Part shown: positions 460-16,881 of the stretch, piece by piece
Numbering within the stretch: position 1 is the stretch's first letter
Layout: each line of letters begins with the position of its first letter
Virus record (IMG/VR): IMGVR_UViG_3300025325_000157
Span: 1-21,001 of that record
Length of the DNA: 21,001 bases
Reading direction: 5' to 3' (one strand)
DNA from: a virus
Position numbers and translations under genes: made by a program
The notes under the pieces: model-generated
What the model saw: only the letters and a program-made list of their open reading frames with translations
Database searches by the model: none
What the model was told of the DNA's origin: nothing

Positions 460-896
460 ACGCCGAAGGGGACCTACTGACCCGACTCATTCCCGGCGCG
501 GTTCAGGTGAAGGGCTCCGACTCGCTGGACGACAAGGAAGCCCGCCTCCATGCGTTCTCGAAGGGCAAGGTCCGGGTCCTCATCACGAAACCGAAGATCG
601 GGGCGTGGGGCCTCAACTGGCAGCACTGTGCGCATATGACCTTCTTCCCGAGCCATTCCTACGAGCAGTACTACCAAGCGGTCCGTAGGTCGTGGAGGTT
701 CGGTCAGAAGCGCCCCGTGGTGGTCGACGTGGTGACTACTGAGGGCGGCCAGAACGCGCTCACGAACCTCGAACGCAAGGCGGGACAGGCCGACAAGATG
801 TTCGACCGGCTCGTGCTCCACATGAACGACGCGCTGGCGATCCAGCGGTCGCAGGACTTCACACGCCCGATCGAGGTCCCGGCATGGCTGTCCTAG
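393..896 (+). CDS. SNF2-family phage helicase, C-terminal helicase lobe (separate frame)
   Basis: This is the second RecA-like lobe of the helicase begun at the window edge. Visible motifs are VVWCHLNAEGD (about residues 17-27), a GSDS turn (41-44), motif V TKPKIGAWGLNWQHC (65-79) and motif VI YYQAVRRSWRFGQ (93-105), which supplies the arginine finger. A stop at 333-335 separates it from any in-frame upstream coding. The only plausible start is a TTG at 393 with no convincing Shine-Dalgarno, so independent translation is doubtful and this is best read as the 3' piece of the same gene. Its end overlaps the start of the methyltransferase by 13 nt, which suggests translational coupling. Family assignment is strong; functional status is uncertain because of the frame break. 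Confidence 0.7.
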   Translation: MAGEQVAALVDTDQSAVVWCHLNAEGDLLTRLIPGAVQVKGSDSLDDKEARLHAFSKGKVRVLITKPKIGAWGLNWQHCAHMTFFPSHSYEQYYQAVRRSWRFGQKRPVVVDVVTTEGGQNALTNLERKAGQADKMFDRLVLHMNDALAIQRSQDFTRPIEVPAWLS

Positions 897-1864
897 ACCA
901 GCGCATCACGGATGAGTACGCCATCTGGAACGGCGACTGCATGGAGGTCATGCCGACCCTGCCCGATGGCTCCGTGCACCTGTCGGTCTACTCCCCGCCT
1001 TTCGCCGGGCTCTACCAGTACAGCTCGAGCGAACGGGACCTCTCGAATAGCCGCGACTACGACCAGTTCTTCGAGCACTACGGCTTCGTCGTCCGCGAGC
1101 TCCACCGCCTCACGATGCCCGGTCGCGTCACGGCGGTGCACGTCATGGACGTGCCCACTGGAAACACCGGCCGCGACGAACTGACTGACTTTCCCGGCGA
1201 CGTGATCCGCCTCCACCGGGACGCGGGGTTCGGCTACATCGCCCGCTACCACGTCTGGAAGGAACCCCTCACCGTGCGCAACCGCACGATGGTCAAGAGC
1301 CTCGCCCACGCCATGATCGTGGAGGACTCGTCGCGCTGCTCAGTCGCCTCGGCCGACTACCTGCTCGTCTTCCGCAAGCGCGGCGAGAACCCCGTCCCAA
1401 TCACCCATCCCGACGGACTGACCGAGTACGCCGGGGCGCGACCCATCCCCAACGATGTGATGGCCTATAGGGGCTGGACCGGCAAACAGATCGAGAACCG
1501 CTACTCGCACTGGATATGGCGACAGTACGCCTCGGCCTTCTGGGACGACGTGCGCCTCGATCGCGTCCTGCCCTTCCGCGAAGCGCGCGATGAGGAGGAC
1601 GAGAAACACGTCCATCCCCTCCAGCTCGACGTGATCGAGCGCTGCCTCGTGCTGTGGAGCAACCCCGGCGAGTCGGTCCTGACCCCGTTCATGGGAGTCG
1701 GCTCTGAGGTCTACGGGGCGGTTCGCAACGGCCGGAGAGGCTTGGGCATCGAACTCAAGCCGTCCTACTACCGGCAGGCCGTCAGGAACCTTGACGCAAT
1801 CAAGTACGACCACGCGCAGGACTCTTGGGAAGAGCACATCCCCGAATCGGCGGGTGTCGCGTGA
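884..1864 (+). CDS. DNA methyltransferase, beta class (N6-adenine/N4-cytosine type)
   Basis: A 326-aa S-adenosylmethionine-dependent amino-methyltransferase that probably modifies the phage's own DNA, protecting it from host restriction. The catalytic motif IV is SPPF at residues 37-40, after an N-terminal NGDCMEVMPTLPDGS segment. The SAM-binding motif I (TPFMGVGSE, residues 267-275) lies near the C-terminus and is followed by GIEL. The order IV then I is the beta-class arrangement of the N6_N4_Mtase family. SPP rather than DPP is commoner in N4-cytosine enzymes, but the target base cannot be fixed from this. No cognate restriction enzyme is visible nearby, so it is a solitary (orphan) methylase in the early operon. 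The ATG at 884 lies inside the end of the helicase frame, and the stop overlaps the next GTG by 4 nt. Confidence 0.9.
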   Translation: MAVLDQRITDEYAIWNGDCMEVMPTLPDGSVHLSVYSPPFAGLYQYSSSERDLSNSRDYDQFFEHYGFVVRELHRLTMPGRVTAVHVMDVPTGNTGRDELTDFPGDVIRLHRDAGFGYIARYHVWKEPLTVRNRTMVKSLAHAMIVEDSSRCSVASADYLLVFRKRGENPVPITHPDGLTEYAGARPIPNDVMAYRGWTGKQIENRYSHWIWRQYASAFWDDVRLDRVLPFREARDEEDEKHVHPLQLDVIERCLVLWSNPGESVLTPFMGVGSEVYGAVRNGRRGLGIELKPSYYRQAVRNLDAIKYDHAQDSWEEHIPESAGVA

Positions 1865-6073: not shown

Positions 6074-6469
6074 ATGACGCTCCTGACGATCGCCGAGGCC
6101 GCCGAACTGCTCCGGGTGAGCGCGGATACGCTCCGCCGTCTCCATCGCCGAGAGGGGCTGCCGATCATGCGGATCTCGGCACGGCGCTACCTCGTCTCCG
6201 AAGAGGCGCTCGGAGAATGGCTGGACAGCCGTACACTCCGGACGTGGGGAGACGGGGATGGGGCCGGGGTTCGCTCTACCGCCACGCCGTCATCGTCAAC
6301 GGCAAGCGCCGGGTCTACTACCGAGTCGCCATCAACCTCGGCACGGACCCGTTCGGCAAGCGCATCCGGCGCGAGTGGCAGAGGCGCACGAAAGAGGAGG
6401 CCACCCGCGTCCTCGAGGAGAATCTACGGCGGCTCCGTGTCGGCCTTCCCCTCGAGGAAGGGCGCGTGA
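6074..6469 (+). CDS. xis: Excisionase (HTH_17/MerR-like)
   Basis: The first 55 residues form a complete HTH_17-type excisionase domain: LLTIAEAAELLRVSADTLRRLHRREG is the helix-turn-helix, followed by the wing IMRISARRYLVSEEALGEWLDS. Such proteins bend attachment-site DNA and direct the integrase towards excision. The frame then runs on to a stop at 6467-6469, giving 131 aa, but everything after about residue 60 is Ser/Thr/Arg low-complexity and lies out of frame over the integrase gene. The real domain therefore ends near the integrase start, with a 253-nt overlap that may be a lost stop codon. The ATG immediately follows the TGA of the 14-codon ORF. The function call is good; the C-terminal boundary is doubtful. 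Confidence 0.8.
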   Translation: MTLLTIAEAAELLRVSADTLRRLHRREGLPIMRISARRYLVSEEALGEWLDSRTLRTWGDGDGAGVRSTATPSSSTASAGSTTESPSTSARTRSASASGASGRGARKRRPPASSRRIYGGSVSAFPSRKGA

Positions 6470-7338
6470 CGCTCGGGGTGTACGGCGCGGCATGGCTCGA
6501 GGGGATGCGCCCCAACGTCCGGCCGACGACGTGGAGCTTCTATGACGTCCTCGTGCGGCTCCATCTGGCCGACCTAGCCTACGTCGACCTCAATCGCCTG
6601 ACCGCGGGCATGGTGCGCGAGCTCGTGGCCACGCGTGTCAAGGAAGGCTACGCCTCGCGGACCGTCCGGGGCGTTGTCGGGGTGCTCTCGATGATCCTTC
6701 GCCAGGCCATGCGCGAGGGTCTGATCGTGATGAACGTGACCGAGGGCATCCGCCTCCCCAAGTTCACCGAGCGCCCCGCTCGCCCGTTCACGACCGAGGA
6801 GGCATACCACTTCCTCGAAGCCGTCAAGGGTGACTGGCTCGAGTCGCTATTCGTCACGGCCATCGGCACGGGCCTCCGGCGGGGAGAGCTCGTGGGCCTG
6901 TCGTGGTCGGACGTCGACCTCGAGGCTGGCGTTGTCCACGTCCGTCAGGCCAAGACCGCGCGAGGCGTGCGGACGATCCCGATGCCACCCTTCGTCATCG
7001 AGGCACTGCGCGAGCATGGCCGCGGGGTAGGGCCGATCTGGAAGGTCACCGAGGATGCCGTGACGCGGCACTTCCGTCTGCTCTGCCAGAGGGTTGGGCT
7101 GCCCCGGGTTCGCTTCCACGACCTTCGTCACACGACGGCTACGCTCCTACTGGCCGAGGGCGTCGACCCGCTGGTCATCCAGAGCATCCTGGGCCACACG
7201 AGCCTGGCCGTGACCGCGCGCTACGCCCACGTCGTCAGCGAGAGTCAGGTGGAGGCGATGCGGCGCCTCGGGGCTCGTTTGGCTGGACAATCGGCTGGAC
7301 ATCCAGACGAGGAAGCGAGCCGCGAGACGAACGGATGA
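6217..7338 (+). CDS. int: Tyrosine recombinase integrase
   Basis: A 373-aa tyrosine recombinase that would insert the phage genome at the tRNA-Gln-derived site just downstream. The N-terminus (GWGRGSLYRH to NLGTDPFGKRIRREWQRRT) is the AP2-like arm-binding domain, followed by a core-binding SAM-like domain (LGVYGAAWLEGMRPNVRPTT onward). The catalytic domain shows Arg221 in TGLRRGEL, Lys246 in QAKTARG, His301-x-x-Arg304 in HDLRH, His327 in LGHTS and the nucleophile Tyr336 in ARYAHV, so all residues are present. I chose the ATG at 6217, inside the excisionase frame; a GTG at 6244 is an alternative. The C-terminal tail is encoded by two of the GGCTGGAC repeats. Upstream extension of the frame only shadows the excisionase. 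Confidence 0.93.
   Translation: MAGQPYTPDVGRRGWGRGSLYRHAVIVNGKRRVYYRVAINLGTDPFGKRIRREWQRRTKEEATRVLEENLRRLRVGLPLEEGRVTLGVYGAAWLEGMRPNVRPTTWSFYDVLVRLHLADLAYVDLNRLTAGMVRELVATRVKEGYASRTVRGVVGVLSMILRQAMREGLIVMNVTEGIRLPKFTERPARPFTTEEAYHFLEAVKGDWLESLFVTAIGTGLRRGELVGLSWSDVDLEAGVVHVRQAKTARGVRTIPMPPFVIEALREHGRGVGPIWKVTEDAVTRHFRLLCQRVGLPRVRFHDLRHTTATLLLAEGVDPLVIQSILGHTSLAVTARYAHVVSESQVEAMRRLGARLAGQSAGHPDEEASRETNG
7281..7301. promoter_or_regulatory. Left pair of GGCTGGACA repeats, candidate integrase arm sites
   Basis: Two identical direct copies of GGCTGGACA (7281-7289 and 7293-7301) start 12 nt apart inside the 3' end of the integrase gene. A matching pair with the same 12-nt period lies on the other side of the tRNA-derived core. 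This symmetry is what arm-type integrase binding sites of a tyrosine recombinase attP look like; binding itself is inferred. Confidence 0.6.
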
Positions 7339-7358
7339 CCGATTTCCCGAGTGGTGAT

Positions 7359-7408
7359 TGGCTGGGGCGGAAGGATTCGAACCTTCGGTCTCCTGATCCA
7401 GAGTCAGG
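7359..7408 (-). other. attP core: 3' portion of tRNA-Gln(CUG) including CCA
   Basis: Read on the - strand, this 50-bp block is the 3' part of a tRNA. It has an anticodon stem 7404-7408 paired with 7392-7396 (5 bp, perfect), a seven-base loop with anticodon CTG (Gln), a 5-nt variable region, a 5-bp T stem with loop TTCGAAT, a CGCCCCA acceptor strand, discriminator G and an encoded CCA (7359-7361). G73 is the discriminator of known bacterial tRNA-Gln. The 5' half (D arm and TGGGGCG acceptor strand) is absent, so this is not a working tRNA gene. Placed 20 nt after the integrase stop, it is the segment of identity that lets the phage insert into a host tRNA-Gln gene and restore its 3' end. Phage genes on both sides favour attP rather than a prophage end. 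Confidence 0.88.
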
Positions 7409-7439
7409 CACGGCCCCCCTCGGGCTTGCGAGCACGAGG

Positions 7440-7470
7440 CGCATAGGGCCGCAGGCGAGGGGTCGCATAG
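7440..7470. repeat. CGCATAG direct repeat pair in the attP region
   Basis: Two direct copies of CGCATAG (7440-7446 and 7464-7470), 24 nt apart start to start, lie between the tRNA-derived core and the right GGCTGGAC pair. Short direct repeats in this position are where excisionase often binds, but a 7-mer pair could be chance. Confidence 0.3.
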
Positions 7471-7490
7471 AGCATCGTCCAGAGCTGGCA

Positions 7491-7511
7491 GGCTGGACAT
7501 TTGGCTGGACT
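7491..7511. promoter_or_regulatory. Right pair of GGCTGGAC repeats, candidate integrase arm sites
   Basis: GGCTGGACA (7491-7499) and GGCTGGACT (7503-7511) repeat with the same 12-nt period as the left pair and in the same orientation, about 83 bp beyond the tRNA-derived core. This stretch (7339-7644) has no convincing gene and appears devoted to recombination sites. Confidence 0.6.
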
Positions 7512-7644
7512 GAAGCCGCACGGGGAGCGGCCCTGATGCCTGGCTAGGCCCGTGCCCCGCCCGTCCGGCCCTGGTCACCATTGGGCCGGCGCTCGCCTCC
7601 CCGTCGGGCCCGCCGAGGAAGCGGAGCCCTCCTGGGCGGGCCCG

Positions 7645-7782
7645 ATGGCCTGCGGGGAGACGGTGGAGGTCAGGGGTCAGGAGCGCGACGGGGCCGTGCT
7701 CATCGTGTCCCGGCGACGCATCCGCCTGACCAGAAGGGAGGCCGAACGCTTGAGTCTGGCCCTGTGGGACCGCTCGACGTGA
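7645..7782 (+). CDS. Small hypothetical protein next to attP
   Basis: A 45-aa ORF (MACGETVEVRGQERDGAVLIVSRRRIRLTRREAERLSLALWDRST). The body is compact: a strand pair (TVEVRG, AVLIVSRRRIRL) followed by a helix (TRREAERLSLALW). The frame is open upstream to a GTG at 7552, but those extra 31 residues are Gly/Pro-rich, so I prefer the ATG at 7645. It may be a small regulator or an unassigned accessory protein; no family is recognised. It stands alone between attP and a palindrome at 7810-7827. Confidence 0.5.
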   Translation: MACGETVEVRGQERDGAVLIVSRRRIRLTRREAERLSLALWDRST

Positions 7783-11143: not shown

Positions 11144-11587
11144 ATGCCAGGCCCCCTTCCCAAGCCGCTCGCGACACGTCGGCGGCGCAACCGAACATCC
11201 ACCGCTGCGCGTTTCACCGACGATGGGAGCGCACGTCCCAAGCGCCGCCCGGAGCTGCCGAGATCGATGCTCTGGCACGAGCTGACGAAGTCATGGTGGC
11301 GCGACGTTTGGACCTCACCCATGGCTCCTGAGTACCTCAAGGTCGACGTCCACGGGCTGTATCGGCTGGCCATGCTCGTGAACCGCTTCTGGATCACCGG
11401 TGGTGACAAGGAACTGGCCGCCGAGATCAGGCTTCAGGGTCAGCTCTTCGGGTTGACGCCGATCGACCGGCGCCGTCTCCAGTGGGAGGTTGCGCGTGCC
11501 GAGGAGGCAGAGGAGCAGCGCAAGCGGCGGAAGCCACCCACGATGCCTGTGGCTGACCCGCGGAGCATCATCCGCGCCGTGTCGTGA
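11144..11587 (+). CDS. terS: Terminase small subunit
   Basis: A 147-aa protein with an ACGGAGG Shine-Dalgarno (11132-11138). The N-terminus is very basic (PLPKPLATRRRRNRTS). The body has LWHELTKSWWRDVWTSPMAPEYLKVD, then LYRLAMLVNRFW and the typical ending EIRLQGQLFGLTPIDRRRLQWEV of P27-like small terminases. It recognises phage DNA and loads the large subunit. A basic C-terminal tail follows. The stop overlaps the GTG of the large subunit by 4 nt, which fixes the operon order. Confidence 0.85.
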   Translation: MPGPLPKPLATRRRRNRTSTAARFTDDGSARPKRRPELPRSMLWHELTKSWWRDVWTSPMAPEYLKVDVHGLYRLAMLVNRFWITGGDKELAAEIRLQGQLFGLTPIDRRRLQWEVARAEEAEEQRKRRKPPTMPVADPRSIIRAVS

Positions 11588-13227
11588 CCACCCTGGTCAC
11601 GCCTCCGGCGGACCGGGTGCCGTGGCCGACCCTCGGACCCCAAGTCTGTCGGTTCATCGAGGAGGAGCTGGTCTTTGGACCGGGCGACCTGCTCGGGCAA
11701 CCGGCCCGCCTCGATGATGAGCAGCGCGGCTTCATTTTCAGCTTCTACGAAGTCCACCCGAGGGGTACGCCGAAGGCCGGTCGCCGACGCTTCCGCCGGG
11801 GTGCGCTCTTCCTGCGCAAGGGCAGTCGGAAGACGGAGTTGGCCGCCTGGATCGCGGCGGTCGAGGCGCATCCCGAGGGCCCTGTCCGGTGCGGTGGGTT
11901 CCGTCGTATCGACGGTCATTGGGAGCCGGTGGGCGGGCCAGTCATCGATCCCTACATCCCCATGCTGGCCTACACCGAGGAGCAGTCCGAGGAGCTGGCC
12001 TACGGGGCGCTCTACCAGATCCTCAGTCGGAGCCGGGTGGTCGACGACTTCGACATCGGGCTCGACCGCATCGTGCGGGCCAGAGGCGATGGCAAGGTCG
12101 TCCCTCTCGCCAACGCCCCGGAGGCGCGGGACGGTGCGCGGACGACGTTCCAGCACAAGGACGAGACCGGCCGCTGGCGTCTGCCGCGCCAGCGGGATGC
12201 CGATAGGGTCACCCGCTCGAACCTCCTGAAGCGCCCGTTGGCCGACCCGTGGGAACTCGAGACGACCCTGATGTATGAGCCCGGTGCGGGGTCAGTGGCG
12301 GAGAGCACGCACGACTACGCCAAGCTCGTGGCGTCGGGGGCGATCAAGGACTCGGGCCTCTTCTTCTTCATGCGCTCGGCCAGTGAGAAACACGACCTCA
12401 CGACTCCGGACGGCGTGCGCGCAGCGGTGCTCGAGGCCTCGGGGCCCCTGGCGGCGTGGTCCGACATCGACGGCATCGTCAGCCAGTTCTTCGAGCCGGA
12501 CGCCGATCCCGCCTGGCTCGCTAGGGCCTGGCTCATGCAAGGTCGCCTGCGTTCCGAGAAGGCTTTCGATGCCGAGCGCTGGAAGGACTTGGCGGATCCC
12601 GACCATGTCGTCCCACCGAAGGCGGTCATCACGATCGGCTTCGATGGCGCGAAGACGCGTGACGCCACGAGCGCTGTGGCGACAGAGGTCTCGACGGGCT
12701 ACCAGTGGCCGCTCGGCGTGTGGCCCGGTGTGACCGAGAGCGAACAGCAAGACCTCGAGCAGGAGGTCGACGTCGCCATCGACGAGGCCTTCACGACGTA
12801 TACCGTGGCCCACATGTACGCCGATCCGCCCTACTGGAAGGACAGCATCGCGCACTGGCAGGGCCGCTACGGCGAGGAGATCGTGGTGCGCTGGGAGACG
12901 TGGCGTCCACGGCCCATGGCCCGCGCCGTGCTGGCCTATGCCAATGCCATCGGCTCGGGCGAGCTTCATCACTCTGGCGATGCGACCTTCGCGGCTCATG
13001 TAGGAGCTGCATTCAAGCGTCCCCTGTCGCTCACGGATGACCAGGGCACGCGCCTGTGGACGGTCCAGAAGGAACGTCCTGACAGCCCCCACAAGATCGA
13101 CGCGGCTGTGGCGGGCCTGCTGTCATGGGAGGCGCGCGCGGACGTCATCGCGGCCGGTGCTCTCCAACCCGCCTTCCGCTCGGCCTATGAGACCGAACGC
13201 CTGACCTTCGCCGGAGGGACTGCATGA
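11584..13227 (+). CDS. terL: Terminase large subunit
   Basis: A 547-aa DNA-packaging motor and nuclease. The N-terminal ATPase has a variant Walker A, FLRKGSRKTELAAW (core residues 78-85), and the segment PYIPMLAYTEEQSEELAYGALYQIL typical of actinophage-type TerL. The C-terminal RNase H-like nuclease shows Asp354 (ITIGFDGAKTRDATS), Asp414 (MYADPPYW) and Asp506 (SPHKIDAA) as probable metal ligands. The length is normal. It translocates DNA into the prohead through the portal and cuts concatemers. The start is the GTG overlapping the terS stop. Its stop overlaps the next small membrane gene by 4 nt. Confidence 0.95.
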   Translation: MTTLVTPPADRVPWPTLGPQVCRFIEEELVFGPGDLLGQPARLDDEQRGFIFSFYEVHPRGTPKAGRRRFRRGALFLRKGSRKTELAAWIAAVEAHPEGPVRCGGFRRIDGHWEPVGGPVIDPYIPMLAYTEEQSEELAYGALYQILSRSRVVDDFDIGLDRIVRARGDGKVVPLANAPEARDGARTTFQHKDETGRWRLPRQRDADRVTRSNLLKRPLADPWELETTLMYEPGAGSVAESTHDYAKLVASGAIKDSGLFFFMRSASEKHDLTTPDGVRAAVLEASGPLAAWSDIDGIVSQFFEPDADPAWLARAWLMQGRLRSEKAFDAERWKDLADPDHVVPPKAVITIGFDGAKTRDATSAVATEVSTGYQWPLGVWPGVTESEQQDLEQEVDVAIDEAFTTYTVAHMYADPPYWKDSIAHWQGRYGEEIVVRWETWRPRPMARAVLAYANAIGSGELHHSGDATFAAHVGAAFKRPLSLTDDQGTRLWTVQKERPDSPHKIDAAVAGLLSWEARADVIAAGALQPAFRSAYETERLTFAGGTA

Positions 13228-13442: not shown

Positions 13443-15106
13443 TGGGCATCTCCTCCCGCGCCCTGAAGGCCGCCGTCGTCGGCTGGCCGGCGGTCGGCTG
13501 GCCGCCGCCCATGGGCTACACCGGCAAGTCGATCACCGACGTCACGGTGAACGCCACCACGGCCATGACCATCGGGGCGTGGCATGCCGGCGTGCGCCTC
13601 ATCGCCGAGGACATCGGCTCGCTGCCGCTTCACCTCTTCGAGAAGGTCGGCAAGGCCCGCATTGAAGCCCCCGATCACCCCTCGTATCCGGCCCTCGCCG
13701 TCATGCCGAACCCCGAGATGACGGCCATGGTCTGGCGCGAGACGATGGTGGGGCACTACCTGACCTGGGGGAACTGCTACTCCGAGAAGGAGTTCAACGG
13801 CCAGGGTCAGGTAGTCCGCCTGTGGCCGTTGCGCCCGGACCGCGTGCGCGTCGCCCGCGAAACTGACACCCAGCGCCGCGTGTACCTCTACACGACCTTC
13901 AAGGGTGAAGAGGTCCCGCTGCCGGCGCGCAACGTCTTCCACGTCCCGGGCTTCGGCTACGACGGGCTGATCGGCTACAGCCGCCTGGCCATGGCCCGGC
14001 GGACGCTCGAGAACGCCATCGCGGTCGAGGAGTTCGGGCTTTACACCTTCGCTAACGGTGCCCAGCCGGGTGTGATCATCAAGCACCCCGGGCAGCTTTC
14101 CCCCACGGCCAAGCTCTCGCTCAAGACGAGCTGGGAGGAGCAGCACAAGGGCCTGTCCAACGCCCAGCGCACGGCCATCCTCGACGAGGGCATGAGCATC
14201 GAGGAGGTCGGCTTCCCGCCCGAGGACGCTCAGTACATCTCGGCCAAGCAGGCGACCGTTGAGGAGATCGCTCGCTGGCTGCGCCTCGCGCCGCACAAGC
14301 TCTCCGACATGAGCCGGGCGACCTTCAGCAATATCGAGGAGTCGAACATCGATTATGTGGTCGGCACCTTGACACCGCCCTTGGTCCGTTTCGAGCAGCA
14401 GATCGACAAGGACGTGCTGGATGCGGGGCGCTACTACGTCAAGCACAACGCGGCGGCCCTGATGCGTGGCAACAGCAAGGATCGCGCTGCGTTCTACCAG
14501 ACCATGCGCCAGAACGGCCTGCTCACCGACGACGAAATCCGCGCCTTCGAGGATCTCAATCCCCTGAGCGAAGAGGACCGTCAGCACGTCCTGTGGCCGC
14601 TCAATAGCGTGCCCGCCTCGGCCTTCGATGCCAACGGTATGACCTTCCAGAACCGCGTTGAATCGGTCGGCGTGCTGGTCCGCGCTGGCTTCGAGCCGGC
14701 GGCAGCCCTGGTGGCCCTGGGAGTTCCCGCAGTGCCTCACACCGGGCTCGTGCCGGTCACCGTCACGCTCGACCCGCTGGCCGGAGCAGCGCCCAAGAGC
14801 ACTGCCCCAGAGGCGCGGGACGTGGAGGCCATCAGCGGGCTCCGTGCGGCGATCCGCTCACTTGCTGAGCCGCCGCCAGCTCCAATCGTGAATGTCGCAC
14901 CGCCGGTAGTGAACGTCCCGGCGCCGCTCGTGACCGTGCAAGCGCCCGACCTGAGTGAGATCGCCGACGGTCTCGAAGCCATCACGGCTCGCCTCGATGC
15001 CTCCGTGACCAAGACTCTCCTCCGCGACCCGGTGACACAGGCCATCGTCGGGGTCAGCGAAATCCGTAATGGCCGGACCAGGAAGGGGACCGCGCGTGGC
15101 CAATAA
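13442..15106 (+). CDS. Portal protein, HK97 family
   Basis: A 554-aa portal that forms the dodecameric DNA channel at one capsid vertex. The family pattern is clear: AWHAGVRLIAEDIGSLPLHLFE near residue 50, MPNPEMTAMVWRETMVGHYL, GNCYSEKE, LWPLRPDRVRV, then GYDGLIGYSRLAMAR, and later the EIARWLRLAPHKLSD segment. The C-terminus is longer than the core: after about residue 430 it has a Pro/Val-rich stretch (IVNVAPPVVNVPAPLVTVQAP) and then EIADGLEAITARLDASV and a closing VTKTLLRDPVTQAIVG. This tail may bind scaffold or the protease. It starts at the GTG sharing one base with the previous stop. Confidence 0.93.
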   Translation: MGISSRALKAAVVGWPAVGWPPPMGYTGKSITDVTVNATTAMTIGAWHAGVRLIAEDIGSLPLHLFEKVGKARIEAPDHPSYPALAVMPNPEMTAMVWRETMVGHYLTWGNCYSEKEFNGQGQVVRLWPLRPDRVRVARETDTQRRVYLYTTFKGEEVPLPARNVFHVPGFGYDGLIGYSRLAMARRTLENAIAVEEFGLYTFANGAQPGVIIKHPGQLSPTAKLSLKTSWEEQHKGLSNAQRTAILDEGMSIEEVGFPPEDAQYISAKQATVEEIARWLRLAPHKLSDMSRATFSNIEESNIDYVVGTLTPPLVRFEQQIDKDVLDAGRYYVKHNAAALMRGNSKDRAAFYQTMRQNGLLTDDEIRAFEDLNPLSEEDRQHVLWPLNSVPASAFDANGMTFQNRVESVGVLVRAGFEPAAALVALGVPAVPHTGLVPVTVTLDPLAGAAPKSTAPEARDVEAISGLRAAIRSLAEPPPAPIVNVAPPVVNVPAPLVTVQAPDLSEIADGLEAITARLDASVTKTLLRDPVTQAIVGVSEIRNGRTRKGTARGQ

Positions 15107-15536: not shown

Positions 15537-15769
15537 TGTGGACCAGCCGACGGACCTACGTGGCATGGGGCAAGTGGTGGGCCATCCAGTTCGTGCGTGG
15601 TGAGATCGGCGGCTTCGGCTTCCGGCCGGTCGTCACGCGACCGTCCCTCGATCTCTACCTCGGTCCGCTGACCATCGCCCTCGGGCGGAGCCCGCACATG
15701 ACCGACCCGGCTCAGCGCGAACGCTTCTCCTGCCGCGGCTTCTTCATCGCTGACCGACCGGTCCTCTGA
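15536..15769 (+). CDS. Small hypothetical structural-region protein
   Basis: A 77-aa protein from the GTG sharing one base with the previous stop. It is aromatic and beta-rich: TYVAWGKWWAIQFVRGEIGGFGFRP, then PSLDLYLGPLTIALGR and RERFSCRGFFI. The LDLYLGPLxIxLG core recurs in short phage proteins of unknown role. Tight spacing on both sides supports expression. Confidence 0.6.
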   Translation: MWTSRRTYVAWGKWWAIQFVRGEIGGFGFRPVVTRPSLDLYLGPLTIALGRSPHMTDPAQRERFSCRGFFIADRPVL

Positions 15770-16881
15770 TGGCCCTCGCGACCAAGGCCACGCGGGGCGC
15801 GGTCGGGACGAACAACTGGACCAACCCGTCCAACGCCACGGCCGACGACACGACCTACGCGACGTGCGCGCCGGGCAAGAACTCATCCGTCATCGGCGAC
15901 TGGGATTTCCTCGCCTTCACGGACGGTGAGCTGCCCGTCGGCTCGCTCATCCAGAGCGTCGTCATCCGCGCCAACTACAAGGTCAGCACGACCATCTCGG
16001 CCGCCTCACTCGGCATCGCCAACGGCAACAACGGTGCCTTCGATACGGAGGAGACGCAGGCGACCGAGCCGACCTCCGACGCCGACTTCGACACGACCTA
16101 CAACAGTCCGCCGTCGATCACTGACCTCAAGACGACCGGCCGCCTCGTGGCGCGCATCCGGGGCATCCGCGGCAACGACAACGACGCGGTCACCTTCAGC
16201 CTCGACTACGTAGAGCTGCGCGTCACCTACGTCGCCCCGATCACCGGGACCGGGGGAGTAGCCTTCGCCGCTCCAAGTTCCTCCGGAACGGCCAAGGAGA
16301 CCATGAGCGGCTCGGGCGGAGTGGTTATCCTGCCCCCCGCCAACGCGGGCACGGCCAAAGAGACGATGGCCGGCTCGGGAACCATCTCATTCCTCGCTCC
16401 CTCAGTCGCGGCCGATGGGACGGTCACCTCGACGGGGGCGACGGGAACAGGTGCCATTGCCTTCGCGGCGCCGGCCATCTCTGGGACTGGGAAGGAAGCC
16501 TTCCTCGGCTCGGGCGGTGTCACCCTCGCCGCTCCCGCTGCCGCGAGCACGGCGAAAGAGACATTCCTTGGGACCGGCGGGGAAGCTTTCCTCGCCCCGA
16601 CCCTCGACGGAACCGGCCTCGTCATCATCCCGGTAACGGGCACGGGGGCCGTTCTCATCGGCGGTCCGAGCGTATCGGCGACGGGCTCTGGTGGCGTGGC
16701 CGCTCCTCCCTCGGGCGGTGGGGGGCGGGTGGGCAGGTCGGCAGGTCGGCGTGTCGGCGGACTGGCGCCTATGCCACGAGTCCTGATCGCGGGCAGCGCC
16801 GCAGTAGGTATCTCAGGACCCTCGATCTCTGGCCGCGGTGAAGTCAACGACGACGCCCTCGCCCTAGCCCTCTTGCTCTGA
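15769..16881 (+). CDS. Repeat-rich fibre-like structural protein
   Basis: A 370-aa protein. Residues 1-155 look like a beta-sandwich (DWDFLAFTDGELPVGSLIQSVVIRANYKV through LDYVELRVTYV), as in carbohydrate-binding or capsid-attached domains. From about 160 to 310 come tandem units of 20-23 residues with the consensus G-[ST]-G-x-x-x-[FL]-x-[AG]-P followed by GTAKET-like ends, starting near 160, 181, 202, 226, 247, 268 and 291, with a decayed copy at 342-359. A Gly/Arg-rich break lies at 314-331. Such repeats usually build fibrous beta structures on the virion surface. Host binding is a plausible inference only. It sits between portal and protease, an unusual place for a fibre. The ATG shares one base with the previous stop. 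Confidence 0.6.
   Translation: MALATKATRGAVGTNNWTNPSNATADDTTYATCAPGKNSSVIGDWDFLAFTDGELPVGSLIQSVVIRANYKVSTTISAASLGIANGNNGAFDTEETQATEPTSDADFDTTYNSPPSITDLKTTGRLVARIRGIRGNDNDAVTFSLDYVELRVTYVAPITGTGGVAFAAPSSSGTAKETMSGSGGVVILPPANAGTAKETMAGSGTISFLAPSVAADGTVTSTGATGTGAIAFAAPAISGTGKEAFLGSGGVTLAAPAAASTAKETFLGTGGEAFLAPTLDGTGLVIIPVTGTGAVLIGGPSVSATGSGGVAAPPSGGGGRVGRSAGRRVGGLAPMPRVLIAGSAAVGISGPSISGRGEVNDDALALALLL

Follow-up and report, generated by a model that had tools for sequence, protein, structure and literature searches.

A candidate attP for tRNA-Gln(CTG) in the genome of a virus predicted to infect Chloroflexota

Positions 7281-7510 of a linear virus record of 21,001 bp, here called the window, are very probably the attP of a temperate tailed phage that integrates into the tRNA-Gln(CTG) gene of its host. 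Within this reading the host, judged from the tRNA sequence of the core, is probably a member of Chloroflexota. This is a standard tRNA-type attP working by an ordinary mechanism, and what it adds is the prediction of the host and an attachment-site anatomy that recurs across Chloroflexota integrases. The site combines a core made of the 3' part of a tRNA gene, a single junction that restores that gene, an adjacent integrase and phage genes on both sides and, as in the attP of lambda and L5, short repeated sites on both sides of the core (Table 1). A sequence-only reading had proposed that core, arms and recombinase occur together here; all are present, the arms as arm-like repeats, and their geometry matches that of an integrated, two-ended element in a Chloroflexota genome.

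Table 1. Positions of the attachment-site features and of selected genes in the window
Feature	Position	Strand	Basis or remark
DNA methyltransferase	884..1864	+	PF01555 E 1.6e-15; phrog_67 E 7.1e-36; int side of attP
HTH excisionase-like ORF	6074..6469	+	HTH_17 E 1.5e-11; phrog_66 excisionase E 1.9e-9
Tyrosine integrase (int)	6244..7338	+	PF00589 E 1.4e-25; phrog_1 integrase E 2.2e-71
Left putative arm-site pair GGCTGGACaatcGGCTGGAC	7281..7300	+	Inside int 3' end; similar pairs past int in relatives
attP core, tRNA-Gln(CTG) 3' part (nt 26 to CCA plus one base)	7358..7409	-	Sequence; 7358-7408 agrees at 50/51 bases with tRNA genes of five Chloroflexota loci
Predicted crossover region, anticodon loop CTCTGGA flanked by CCTGA and TCAGG	7397..7403	-	Inferred from sublocation in relatives and from Islander class A (PMC4383910)
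Right putative arm-site pair GGCTGGACatttGGCTGGAC	7491..7510	+	Direct-repeat and motif counts
Terminase large subunit	11584..13227	+	phrog_9 E 1.6e-49; opposite side of attP from int

The tRNA-derived core and the predicted host gene

Read on the minus strand from 7408 down to 7358, the core is CCTGACTCTGGATCAGGAGACCGAAGGTTCGAATCCTTCCGCCCCAGCCAA. It opens with a perfect anticodon arm (CCTGA-CTCTGGA-TCAGG, anticodon CTG), continues through an AGACC variable loop and a T arm (GAAGG-TTCGAAT-CCTTC), and closes with the acceptor 3' strand CGCCCCA, G73, CCA and one A, so that all its stems are intact; ARAGORN called no complete tRNA in the 21,001-bp window. Sequence and program thus agree with the sequence-only reading of 7359-7408 as the 3' portion of a tRNA-Gln, with anticodon CTG, G73 and CCA and lacking the 5' half. 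The bounds given there hold broadly, with identity to host tRNA genes reaching 7358 (the A after CCA) and 7409 (G26). The full tyrosine integrase placed 20 nt before the block is likewise borne out by profile matches, its stop lying at 7338 and the block starting at 7359.

Neither IMG/VR nor the genome collection contained an exact copy of the core (46-50 nt). We report a relaxed pattern, in which the anticodon arm, the T-loop consensus and the acceptor strand were fixed and variation was allowed in the variable loop and over most of the T stem. Among 84,980 prokaryote species it found 32 loci, 30 of them titled Chloroflexi, Chloroflexota, Dormibacterota or named members of these and 2 titled only 'bacterium', the phylum being read from record titles. 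The same relaxed pattern had no match in viral contigs, nor did the core match deposited phages; among plasmids its one match, in Rhizobium (86% over 50 bases), was put down to the usual resemblance among tRNAs. Five Chloroflexota tRNA-Gln(CTG) genes (L087, L095, L111, L112 and L113) agree with the phage block at 50 of 51 bases, including the A after CCA, and the sole mismatch falls in the variable loop, where the phage has C and the hosts have T. Another genome of the class to which these five belong (G170) has a tRNA-Gln(CTG) with the variable loop of the phage and one difference in the acceptor. In silico fusion of the five host 5' halves to the phage block gave an intact tRNA-Gln(ctg) in all five cases according to ARAGORN, which called no tRNA at the reciprocal junctions. 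The search for host genes with a matching 3' part, suggested on the basis of the window, was thus answered at 50/51. The claim that the target could be predicted from the window alone holds for the gene and not for the host, for which database searches were needed. As far as these sequences tell, the host most likely belongs in or near the order that supplied the 50/51 matches.

Isolated 3' halves of tRNA-Gln(CTG), with identity starting at about nt 27, are found in the class of genome G001 (177 genomes), namely in G006 (contig C5), G035 (C43), G069 (C69), G164 (C2) and G166 (C1). Such displaced halves in several genomes of the class indicate that tRNA-Gln(CTG) is used as a target by mobile DNA, at the same sublocation. 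The halves in G006, G164 and G166 (L174:1846, L177:7574 and L179:6970) have about 90 bp of upstream flank in common, and L177 contains a repeated GTGGGCACCTGA-like sequence; all three may be right-hand termini of related elements, partly decayed and of a single family. The 13.7-kb stretch of G166 from the full tRNA to the displaced half was rejected as an intact element, as its long ORFs, crudely screened for motifs, look metabolic and include no integrase; it may be a relic. No lysogen or prophage of the phage itself was found in the genome collection, the genomes of the class or the best-matching order, and the portal had no strong relative in 22 genomes of that order. A terminase relative (55%) is present in one genome of the class, on a 4-kb contig of the Chloroflexota MAG G028. 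A peptide-pattern search of IMG/VR returned no relatives of the integrase, and 80 terminase-related viral loci showed distant integrases only and no matching core.

Repeat pairs and related integrases

Each repeat pair consists of direct repeats, GGCTGGAC-N4-GGCTGGAC, with one pair on either side of the core; 7281-7300 and 7491-7510 are 90% identical. The two-octamer motif, with 2 mismatches allowed, has 2 matches in the window against 0.02 expected, at least 2 being reached in 0 of 100 shuffles, and the octamer alone occurs 6 times against 1.5 expected. Two direct-repeat pairs had been said to flank the block. The one just described stands; 7232-7249/7391-7408, if meant as the second, is 78% identical, weak and probably due to chance, and was rejected as an arm pair. 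The arm-like repeats around the core are thus there as described, except that the 3' end of int, instead of preceding the left pair, contains it. An extra GGCTGGAC copy at 6219-6226, just upstream of the proposed int start, is either a regulatory Int site or a chance occurrence.

The closest structural counterpart is an integrated element on contig 84 of the Chloroflexota MAG G006, where a related integrase lies beside tRNA-Cys(GCA) (14908-14981) and the last 44 bases of this gene recur identically 28 kb away, at 43069-43112. Each end of the element has a pair of ATAGGCTGTC repeats 12 bp apart, and one copy on the right has a mismatch. With its ends joined, the rebuilt attP reads arm pair, 59 bp, core, 84 bp, arm pair, and all repeats have the orientation of int. 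The window reads arm pair, 58 bp, core, 82 bp, arm pair, with the same orientations. The two therefore share a related integrase, its orientation, arm repeats paired at 12 bp on both sides and nearly equal gaps, and differ in that the G006 element targets tRNA-Cys, has a different arm sequence and is integrated.

Another element, on contig 2 of G106, spans about 52.6 kb between identical arm pairs CGCGCAGCAGAA, one at each end. The sequence shared there, CGGTTTTGAAGACCGG, is the anticodon stem-loop of tRNA-SeC, which suggests that the crossover again takes place at the anticodon loop. In this element (L215-L217; 79498-79682 and 132261-132320) int lies on the 5' side of tRNA-SeC, so the 5' rather than the 3' part of the gene would be replaced.

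At E<=1e-20, relatives of the integrase occur in 34 of the 177 genomes of the class, the best being 41% identical. In a phylum-wide set of 400 genomes, 30 have a relative at 1e-35 or better. The closest (L114/L191) adjoins tRNA-Lys(CTT) in the same orientation and has GTGGCTACAGT twice. Many of the relatives lie no more than about 250 bp from a tRNA gene, the 3' ends of int and tRNA facing each other. The isotypes are Lys, Cys, Thr, Asn and Pro in the class and Phe, Arg, Val, Lys, Met and Leu across the phylum, so that the closest integrase relatives adjoin isotypes other than Gln. For about half of the relatives no nearby tRNA was detected, and among those examined no related phage was established at a non-tRNA site. 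Just past int, 13 of 29 loci (not all independent, as L132, L136 and L138 have the same pair) have direct repeats of at least 9 bp that are paired at a period of 11 or 12 bp, against 3% of control windows, and no other period was enriched in the 29 loci. Phylum-wide, such pairs (at least 8 bp) are found in 10 of 15 loci.

Genes on either side of the site

According to Pfam and PHROGs, helicase, methyltransferase and replication initiation genes lie on the int side of the core, and terminase, portal and capsid genes on the far side. Int is preceded by an excisionase-like HTH ORF, whose domain occupies the first ~55-80 residues and whose end is uncertain. We propose that int starts with the GTG at 6244. 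The excisionase-like ORF stays open to 6469, overlapping int by 226 nt in a different frame, and its later part resembles an out-of-frame translation, so that the int start, the xis end or a frameshift is unusual here.

Past the right arm, at 7601-7648, a 19-nt inverted repeat (89% complementary, 10-nt loop) forms a strong hairpin. The ORF at 11144-11587 is a minor tail protein according to PHROGs (phrog_226) and a terminase small subunit according to Pfam (Terminase_7, E 1.2e-28); we favour the latter because it sits ahead of the large subunit. Between the portal and protease genes, the ORF at 15769-16881 has degenerate repeats of the kind FAAPSxSGTxKExxxGSGGV, and its product looks like a repetitive, structural protein.

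Proposed integration and alternative readings

By analogy with lambda-type integrases and with the sites of mycobacteriophages (PMC3203893, PMC10865867), the N-terminal domain of Int would bind four arm sites, two in each repeat pair, while the tRNA-derived core would pair with the tRNA-Gln(CTG) gene of the host. The catalytic domain would then cut, and the strands would be exchanged in the anticodon loop, flanked by the CCTGA/TCAGG inverted repeat. In the resulting prophage, the 5' half of the host gene and the 3' block of the phage would form a working tRNA-Gln beside int, the 3' half of the host being displaced to the far end.

In a record that is a linear 21-kb fragment, the block might be a prophage end (attL or attR) or the junction of tandem prophages instead of a free attP. 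A half displaced to attR would also be an incomplete tRNA, and a tandem junction and attP would be identical in sequence. This is very unlikely, as the block has phage genes to its left and right, ARAGORN found no tRNA 5' half in the window, and the core is flanked on either side by the same arm pair, whereas at each end of the integrated G006 element a single pair remains. The absence of a complete tRNA and the phage genes on both sides are why we call the site attP, as had been claimed from the sequence: the block does not continue into the remainder of a tRNA, and the recognisable genes on both sides are those of a phage. It is extremely unlikely that the block is a decayed phage-borne tRNA gene, or a sequence that resembles a tRNA by chance, and plays no part in integration. 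Some phages are known to have tRNA genes, in part degenerate ones, but here all stems are intact, the cut falls exactly at the anticodon stem as in the displaced halves of integrated elements, and the position beside int with symmetrical repeat pairs matches a real element, that of G006. Phages that disrupt a host tRNA gene without restoring it exist and have paired arm sites too (tRNA-dependent lysogeny, PMC10865867). They share a core of ~10-17 bp and bring a whole tRNA of their own, whereas here 51 bp through CCA are shared, the junction restores the tRNA and the window holds no complete tRNA, and we give an attP of that type almost no chance.

As attP, the site resembles those of mycobacteriophages Giles, L5 and Cluster K, which also have a tRNA- or tmRNA-derived core flanked by pairs of arm-type repeats next to int (PMC3203893). 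Their repeats are pairs of ~11 bp, in direct orientation in Giles and L5, and the K1 sites use the T stem region of tmRNA (PMC3203893). The host phylum is different, the integrase is ~31% identical to the best deposited phage integrases, the left pair lies inside the int coding end, and the core is 3' of int, whereas in Cluster K it is 5' (PMC3203893). Class A islands of Islander, with an attP centred on the anticodon of a tRNA gene, likewise have a block from the anticodon stem to the 3' end, a 3' tDNA fragment type (PMC4383910); here the block is unintegrated, in a virus record, and the host lineage is inferred.

Down to roughly the level of class or order, the tRNA core assigns this uncultured virus to bacteria that have been little studied. 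The window also holds an int-attP module with a predicted attB, of the kind from which integration vectors for mycobacteria have been built (PMC3203893), and the paired-repeat pattern is a simple marker for attP and arm sites in other anonymous viruses. More tentatively, and with slightly less than an even chance in our view, phages and islands of Chloroflexota may use one large group of integrases in which arm sequence and tRNA target diversify while the geometry stays fixed (a pair of ~10-bp sites 11-12 bp apart on each side, with similar gaps). If this is true, the targets and hosts of anonymous Chloroflexota viruses would be readable from sequence across the phylum.
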